DNA of 50,938 nt. Origin: Clostridia bacterium (GTDB lineage Bacteria > Bacillota > DTU025). Within the stretch, counting starts at the first letter, position 1. Each line of letters begins with the position of its first letter. The position numbers were made by a program, and so were the translations under genes. The notes below the pieces were generated by a model. It ran no database searches. It was not told the DNA's origin and saw nothing but the letters and a program-made list of their open reading frames with translations. Location: NCBI GenBank assembly GCA_034926675.1, contig JAYFQW010000029.1, forward strand, positions 1-50,938, written 5' to 3'. This document shows positions 49,075-50,938 of the stretch, in pieces.

Positions 49075-49911
49075 TTACGATGCACTCATCTCCAGATACG
49101 TATGGACTATAGGCCGAAGGCCACGCCCCGCCCGCGGCTTTCTGCCCTCATCTCCAGATACGTATGGACTATAGGCATAATCCGAGTAGAACCCCTCCGC
49201 GCGAAATCCTTCTCCCGCAAGCATCTCCTTCATGCGGGACGGGGAGCAGGTGGACTCGAGGCTTGCCTCCACTGTGATCTGGGCGTGTGAACCATTGTGC
49301 CTGTAGCTGATCTGATCGACTAATCTGAGCGTGGGGTCAATCGTCTTCATTTGAACCGTTTGAACCACGATCCCCCCAGTGTCCGGGTTGATGTCTTGAA
49401 TGCCAAGCCATGGATTGGACTCGCCCGGCTGGCATGTGCCGGCGTCGAAGTCAAAGGCCAGTAACCCTGAGTTCTCGAGATGGCGGTATGCGGAGCGGAA
49501 TACGCGCTGTCGTTCCTCGTCGGCATGCATGTAGATCATGGTGAACTATGGAATTATTATTAGTGAGAACCTGCGACCCTCAAGATCGAACTCCCTCATA
49601 TCACCCTGATGCAGAACCGGCTCGAAGCCGAGCGTCCGGGCCTTTTCCCTGGACATCTCCAGCATGGGAGCGGATAGGTCAAGCCCCACGACCGTGTAGC
49701 CGCTGCCGAGCAGATGCAGCAAGACCCGACCAGTTCCGCATGCGATATCCAGCACCGGTCCGCCCTGCTTCTTGGCAAGGTCGCGGTAGAAGGCCAGGTC
49801 ATCGGTAAACTGAATGGTGCGGTCATAGAGGTTGTCGTTTCCGTAGGAGTCGACCGCCGTGGCCAGACCGTTGTCGAGGAGCCTCCTGGCCATCCCAAAG
49901 TACAGGTCCAT
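49075..49911 (-). pseudogene. SAM-dependent methyltransferase split by one amber codon
   Basis: A single register of about 278 codons runs from ATG 49911 (GAGGAGG seven bases upstream) to 49075. It is interrupted only by TAG at 49546-49548. Motif I is VLDIACGTGRVLLHLLGSGY, then VVGLDLSAPMLEMSREKA, and RFSLIIIP where the family continues with Tyr; the amber codon takes that place, so TAC to TAG is likely. The second half has VFRSAYRHLENSGLLAFDFD and LVDQISYRHNGSHA. The C-terminal 20 residues come from a duplicated 29-bp segment in a shifted frame. Readthrough or a sequencing error cannot be excluded. Confidence 0.75.
49085..49175. repeat. 29-bp direct duplication in methyltransferase 3' end
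   Basis: The same 29 bases, beginning CTCATCTCCAGATACGTATG, occur at 49085-49113 and 49147-49175, 62 bases apart. Since 62 is not a multiple of three, the two copies are read in different frames (AYSPYVSGDE and RPIVHTYLEM), and the methyltransferase tail is aberrant. Confidence 0.85.
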
Positions 49912-50170
49912 GCAATTGCCTCCTCTATGTATGCACTATTGAACGCTTCCGAATGCCAGTGGCACATTCCGGAATGGAGCCCTGGATCAGAGGATTCGAA
50001 CTGATGCTCGGAATTCCTCCATGTTAGGCGAGTGCCGACTGGGCTTCCGCATGCCGCAGCGGGCGCAACGCGCGTAGCTGGGCATAAAGGAAAGGCGGCG
50101 CGGCGGCGCCGCCCACCGCCTATGCTCTTGTGCTTGTTCGGGCGAGCGGTCGCCTGCGATGGCGCCGAGA

Positions 50171-50249
50171 TTCTCATTTCTGAGTGAAACGGCGGGTGCA
50201 GATTCTCATCCGTGAGGATTTTGCGGCGGCCCGCACTCAAAAACGAGAA
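50171..50249 (+). ncRNA. Candidate structured RNA core, unit 1
   Basis: Outer arms 50171-50186 and 50234-50249 pair with two A-C mismatches. The inner hairpin 50202-50219 has a perfect 7-bp stem (one G-U) and loop UCCG, a member of the stable UNCG class if transcribed from the plus strand. No promoter is evident. Confidence 0.3.
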
Positions 50250-50452
50250 ACTTCGCCCGTCCCCAGGGCGCGCGCCATCGGGGCGCGACTGAGTGCCGGT
50301 AGCGGGTCGCCGGTGGAAGGATGCCTGCAGCGGGTACAAAGCGCGTAGCTGGACATAAAGGAAAGGCGGGGGAATGGCGGCGCGGCGGCGGCCCCTACCG
50401 CATATGCGCTTGTACTCGTTCGGGCGAGCAGTCGCGGGTGACGGTGCCGGGA

Positions 50453-50531
50453 TTCTCATTTTTGAGTGAAACGGCGGGTGCAGATTCTCATCCGTGAGCA
50501 TTTTCCGGCGGCCCGCACTCAAAAATGGGAA
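50453..50531 (+). ncRNA. Candidate structured RNA core, unit 2
   Basis: Outer arms 50453-50468 and 50516-50531 pair at 15 of 16 positions, the sixteenth being a G-U. The inner hairpin 50484-50501 has one mismatch (TGAGCAT instead of TGAGGAT) and the same UCCG loop. Confidence 0.3.
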
Positions 50532-50734
50532 ACTCGGTCCGGTCCCAGGACGCGCGCCATCGGGGCGCCGTTGAAGCGCCACTGAGTGCCGCCAATGGAT
50601 TGCGAGCGCCGGGATGCCCACGAAGGTCACACAGCGCGTAGCTGGGCATAAAGGAAAGGCGGCGCGGCGGCGCCGCCCACCGCATATGCTCCTGTGCTTG
50701 TTCAGGCGAGCAGTCGCGGGTGACGGTGCCGGGA

Positions 50735-50813
50735 TTCTCATTTTTGAGTGAAACGGCGGGTGCAGATTCTCATCCGTGAGGATTTTCCGGCGGCCTGTGC
50801 TCAAAAATGGGAA
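50735..50813 (+). ncRNA. Candidate structured RNA core, unit 3
   Basis: Outer arms 50735-50750 and 50798-50813 pair throughout if G-U wobbles are allowed. The changes relative to unit 2 (TGCTC for CACTC) give G-U pairs rather than breaks. The inner hairpin 50766-50783 is intact. Confidence 0.3.
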
Positions 50814-50938
50814 ACTCGGTCCGGTCCCAGGGCGTGCGCTATCGGGGCGCGACTGAGTGCCGGTAGCGGGTCGCCGGTGGAAGGATGCCCGCGGCGGGCG
50901 CAACGCGCGTAGCTGGGCATAAAGGAAAGGCGGCGCGG

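Follow-up and report, generated by a model that had tools for sequence, protein, structure and literature searches.

A tandem intergenic repeat with palindrome triplets spaced at three helical turns in a clostridial lineage

The window, the whole stretch of 50,938 nucleotides that was analyzed, corresponds to contig C29 in a draft genome of 3.38 Mb and 90 contigs (Clostridia bacterium, here G000). A tandem array of three repeat units and the start of a fourth lies at its end, and the periods of 271, 293 and 271 proposed in a sequence-only reading are borne out by the GCGTAGCTGG-core starts at 50,072, 50,343, 50,636 and 50,907. TRF returns a period of 282 and 3.0 copies with a score of 1099 over 50,092-50,933; the direct repeats of the array are real and far beyond chance. 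The extent given here is a minimum, the array continuing past the contig end. Each unit is laid out as three palindromes of the form CTCA-N4-TGAG (boxes 1 to 3), 31 or 32 bp apart, together with a GTAGCTGG/GC-hairpin core. The features are as follows.

50,056-50,938, + strand: tandem array of three units plus a partial fourth, running off the contig end
50,072-50,101, + strand: core of unit 1, GCGTAGCTGG-N8-GGAAAGGCGGCGC followed by a GC hairpin, a pattern common to genomes G003 and G004
50,093-50,114, - strand: GC-rich hairpin of the core, unit 1; terminator-like on the - strand, weak and no better than shuffles
50,173-50,184, no strand: palindrome box 1, unit 1, CTCATTTCTGAG
50,205-50,216, no strand: palindrome box 2, unit 1, CTCATCCGTGAG, with a UNCG loop, 32 bp after box 1
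50,236-50,247, no strand: palindrome box 3, unit 1, CTCAAAAACGAG, 31 bp after box 2
50,343-50,370, + strand: GCGTAGCTGG core of unit 2, with an 11-bp insertion ahead of the GC hairpin
50,455-50,466, no strand: palindrome box 1, unit 2, CTCATTTTTGAG
50,487-50,498, no strand: palindrome box 2, unit 2, CTCATCCGTGAG
50,518-50,529, no strand: palindrome box 3, unit 2, CTCAAAAATGGG
50,636-50,665, + strand: GCGTAGCTGG core of unit 3
50,657-50,678, - strand: GC-rich hairpin in the core of unit 3, likewise terminator-like on this strand
50,737-50,748, no strand: palindrome box 1, unit 3, CTCATTTTTGAG
50,769-50,780, no strand: palindrome box 2, unit 3, CTCATCCGTGAG
50,800-50,811, no strand: palindrome box 3, unit 3, CTCAAAAATGGG
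50,907-50,936, + strand: GCGTAGCTGG core opening unit 4, truncated at the contig end

A SAM methyltransferase gene split in two frames lies beside the array on the minus strand (49,075-49,911); its 49,546-49,911 part matches Methyltransf_25 positions 1-70, and the adjoining ORF covers 49,075-49,539. This split reflects either a pseudogene or an assembly frameshift. A 34-bp direct repeat, TGCNCTCATCTCCAGATACGTATGGACTATAGGC, occurs twice, 62 bp apart, at 49,081-49,176, upstream of the array and outside the unit.

The repeat had been read as multicopy, and the unit indeed has 51 matches in G000, spread over about 20 intergenic loci, many of them at contig ends. A covariance model built on a 118-column core, a search proposed from the sequence alone, recovered about 39 strong copies and a diverged set in G000 but gave zero matches in other genomes, because the palindrome letters differ in relatives. 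The diverged set is a second tandem subfamily (subfamily II), whose periods are about 228 and 242 bp and whose arrays sit at the ends of contigs C80, C7, C72, C59 and C83. Subfamily II and the window units (subfamily I) have the three CTCA-N4-TGAG boxes and their spacing in common, while the remainder is unrecognizable and the likeness of the diverged core was judged by eye (CATAGCAGGAATGGAAGGAA versus CGTAGCTGGGCATAAAGGAAAGG). About 16 contig ends fall in or near arrays, indicating that the assembly breaks there.

The genes adjoining the arrays are unrelated to one another (argininosuccinate synthase, aldehyde dehydrogenase, ABC transporters, TilS, NusG, MTHFR and others); no common neighbor was found across arrays, and the ORF lists give mixed gene orientations, with convergent, tandem and divergent settings and no preference. 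The array of contig C70 (L033, 2,311-2,858) adjoins a livM that keeps only its last quarter (PF02653 positions 208-268, weakly matched at E 0.0088), with its ABC ATPase gene coming next, and the C42 array adjoins a truncated group II intron reverse transcriptase. Flanks are also common to pairs of array loci. These truncated neighbors and common flanks suggest that insertion or recombination has taken place at the arrays. When examined for MITE-type ends, the copies in G000 showed no constant element ends, starting and stopping at different unit positions. Group II intron pieces (an RT fragment and domain V) lie next to an array (L037 and L042), whose 108-bp right flank recurs beside the array of contig C89; C89 and C1 have a 247-bp left flank in common.

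The array was initially held to match no known repeat class; that it is a structured repeat other than CRISPR, IS or rRNA/tRNA stands. A search of Rfam 15 gave no match above gathering score for the array, only group II introns near one array. CRISPR loci have repeats of 24-48 bp with unique spacers, whereas the units here, 271-293 bp long, repeat head to tail along the entire unit.

The 16-base stem between boxes 1 and 3, enclosing an inner UCCG-loop hairpin, is seen in all three units, with at least two mismatches in the stem of unit 1. The whole unit folds better than its shuffles, more strongly on the GTAGCTGG strand (z -4.3 on the + strand and -2.3 on the - strand). The element might accordingly be a multicopy structured non-coding RNA made from the GTAGCTGG strand, in which box 1 pairs with box 3 around the UNCG hairpin of box 2. 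In keeping with this, nearly every copy of subfamily I has UCCG, UUCG or UGCG as its box 2 loop, and G-U outnumbers A-C by 60:5 among cells in the core stems and by about 21 to 7 among parsimony events in the box 1:box 3 and box 2 helices. The palindrome arms of relatives add 11 G-U versus 4 A-C, for a combined 32:11 (nominal p of about 0.001, with events that are not independent). The G-U-compatible arm changes noted earlier are real, but true compensatory change is scarce: covariation in RNAalifold is weak, with change on both sides in only 1 of 18 pairs. Helices outside the core stems show no bias or the opposite bias, and when helices are picked by a strand-neutral rule across the entire unit, no overall bias is seen (179 G-U versus 147 A-C cells). 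The UNCG loop is missing from subfamily II, where the middle-box loop is AAAC, and from relatives, where loops vary; one element of G004 folds better on the opposite strand; and no promoter-like site was found in the array region. Linkers of free sequence but fixed length would, moreover, be unusual for RNA. The data hint that one strand folds, either as RNA or as single-stranded DNA, and the G-U bias would fit folded single-stranded DNA as well. The multicopy structured repeat stands, but we consider its reading as an RNA unlikely and rank that reading second.

A scan with the core identified the element in two genera of the same family, represented by G003 (Clostridia bacterium DTU025) and G004 (Firmicutes bacterium UBA1393). 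Their common core is GCGTAGCTGG-N7/8-GAARG-GC hairpin, and it is accompanied by GACCC-N6-GGGTC palindromes in G004 and G003 and by CTCCTCC-N4-GGAGGAG palindromes in G003. A third genus, G002, has one locus in which two GACCC triplets surround a TAGCTGG core. The GACCC palindrome pair is present in 3 of 8 family genomes (G002, G003 and G004) and in none of the roughly 107 further genomes searched in the phylum; the distribution was searched with the GACCC form and the core, so that other palindrome words could be missed. Beyond the two relatives, the core scan gave single matches in unrelated taxa, as chance would predict for so short a pattern. All genomes are drafts, the carriers G000, G003 and G004 being MAGs of 97, 96 and 84% completeness. 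The long stem and its UNCG hairpin are not what is constant across genera; the three palindromes at 31/32-bp spacing and the GTAGCTGG/GC-hairpin core are. One G003 locus (L258, contig C1, about 1,120-1,420) holds two GTAGCTG plus GC-hairpin cores about 280 bp apart with no recognizable GACCC or CTCCTCC boxes, which perhaps points to a further palindrome word. Searches for a plasmid or viral origin yielded no plasmid relative, and the GACCC geometry matched nothing viral; a loose CTCA pattern gave 10 hits in viruses, which we took to be chance.

Three turns of B-DNA span 31.5 bp, and the palindromes keep close to this distance throughout. In subfamily I and L050 together, the two successive spacings are 32,31 in 28 cases and 31,31 in 9, with the L050 pair at 31,31; in subfamily II they are 31,32 or 32,32. 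Relatives show 28 spacings of 32, 3 of 31 and 8 of 41 bp and nothing else, the 41-bp cases being those with an inserted GTAGCTGG and lying near four turns; the CTCCTCC-type palindromes are spaced at 32. A scan of 671 kb of G003 with no preset spacing found seven same-arm palindrome pairs, six of them exactly 32 bp apart, and zero pairs in shuffled sequence. Applied to G001, from a genus without the element, the same scan gave as its sole signal a CRISPR-like 61-bp period at 28 places, which is probably a CRISPR array. Four G004 elements, 61-66% identical overall, are 94% identical in the arms, 70% in the linkers, 60% in the loops and 61% in other inner sequence, and have no indels inside the triplets. 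Sequence-specific palindromes, whole-turn spacing and constraint are all found, as a phased protein-binding site would show.

A neutral DNA satellite or decayed MITE, functionless and with copies alike only through recent amplification and gene conversion, would explain the tandem growth, the arrays at contig ends, the common flanks between loci and the truncated neighbors. It does not explain why the arms remain 94% identical against roughly 60% for the rest of the element, nor why the spacing persists across two subfamilies and several genera although the letters of the palindromes differ, and neutral decay would not preserve 31/32 bp free of indels. This origin, already disfavored, appears very improbable.

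Mobility was weighed against the REP/BIME elements, which are high-copy intergenic palindromes found in tandem or mosaic groups, with a GTAG near the palindrome and lineage-specific sequence families (PMC3733652, PMC8266576). An element of the REP/BIME type, mobilized by a Y1 (RAYT) transposase or another enzyme in the form of folded single-stranded DNA and afterwards amplified in tandem, would resemble the present one in its GTAG motif 5' of a palindrome, as in REPs (PMC8266576, PMC3733652), in its dispersed, intergenic and tandem repeats of lineage-specific sequence, in the wobble bias on the GTAG strand and in the truncated genes that adjoin the arrays. The differences are of form and of enzyme. 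The present unit of 228-290 bp carries three phased palindromes at fixed 31/32-bp spacing in place of the 20-40 bp REP form, which has GTAG or CGTC at its base, and the palindrome sequence is swapped between genera while the geometry stays. The GC hairpin always has GTAGCTGG ahead of it, as do some GACCC palindromes in G004, whereas the CTCA boxes of the window lack it; the conserved palindromes of G000 have no preceding GTAG. The Y1 transposase family associated with REPs in RAYT systems (TnpA-REP), PF01797, is absent from the carriers G000, G003 and G004 and present in G001, G002, G005 and G008; no form of the element was found in G001 or G005, while G002 has both PF01797 and one element locus. 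A Y1 gene could be missing from the carrier MAGs, given their completeness. RAYT-driven mobilization by a resident enzyme is thus unsupported in these drafts, and REP-like mobility, which we rank third, is a doubtful explanation. G001 also has about ten Y1 transposase matches.

The pneumococcal BOX element, built as boxA-boxBn-boxC (PMC3049150), comes closest, being modular and lacking a known enzyme. Both are modular, lineage-restricted intergenic repeats of a few hundred bases with predicted RNA folds and no enzyme identified (PMC3049150), but the modules here are sequence-specific palindromes in helical phase, and whole units form tandem arrays. We class the present element as a variant of the interspersed extragenic repeat and as a member of neither REP/BIME nor BOX. 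We know of no similarity between its GTAGCTGG/GC-hairpin core and BOX. Multi-site operators place several palindromic sites on one helix face at whole-turn spacing; unlike them, this element occurs in tens of dispersed copies and tandem arrays, beside unrelated genes in every orientation.

Among the options raised at the outset, a protein-binding chromosomal repeat is the best supported, by the fixed 31/32-bp spacing and the conserved arms. We tentatively favor, at somewhat less than even confidence, a REP/BOX-like intergenic repeat that is specific to this lineage and maintained as a putative phased, multi-dimer protein-binding site. It is placed first because fixed whole-turn spacing, combined with linkers and loops that vary freely, would be needed for dimers bound to double-stranded DNA, whereas one would not expect it of an RNA. 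The roughly 50 matches in about 20 loci beside unrelated metabolic genes, the box motif and spacing kept by both subfamilies, the 6 of 7 pairs at 32 bp in the preset-free scan, the conserved, indel-free G004 triplets and the restriction of the GACCC pair to the family also favor it. Weighing against it, no candidate protein was found, and the G-U excess on the GTAGCTGG strand points to single-strand folding. The boxes of subfamily I have self-complementary arms of only 4 bp, and there A-to-G changes in right arms are far commoner than T-to-C changes in left arms, an asymmetry not predicted for a symmetric double-stranded site. The truncated livM and reverse transcriptase fit mobile or selfish behavior as well as function.

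The array in the window is one site of a non-coding intergenic family that has grown in tandem and spread around the chromosome; under phased protein binding, the function retained would be that of a cooperative binding platform on double-stranded DNA. A hypothetical dimeric protein may recognize each palindrome, CTCA-N4-TGAG here and GACCC-N6-GGGTC or CTCCTCC-N4-GGAGGAG in sister genera, and three such dimers would sit on one helix face because their sites are 31 or 32 bp, or three helical turns, apart. We infer that this protein could act on chromosome organization or on the expression of nearby genes, and that recognition sequences may have evolved in step with proteins that are paralogous or diverging. 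A bolder proposal, which we regard as rather unlikely, is that these repeats form an undescribed element class defined by geometry and not by sequence, with palindrome triplets locked at three turns plus the conserved GTAGCTGG/GC-hairpin core and a recognition word that is replaced from genus to genus, two such words being present together in one genome, which would imply a coevolving family of DNA-binding proteins that organizes or marks the chromosome.

To our knowledge, most bacterial intergenic repeats are classified by sequence and regarded as mobile debris. The present repeats keep a three-turn spacing although their letters differ between genera, which makes the specific prediction that a protein binds along a single face of the DNA. 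Should this be true, the repeats would offer a natural series of swapped recognition words with which to find that protein and to ask what effect the arrays have on the chromosome.
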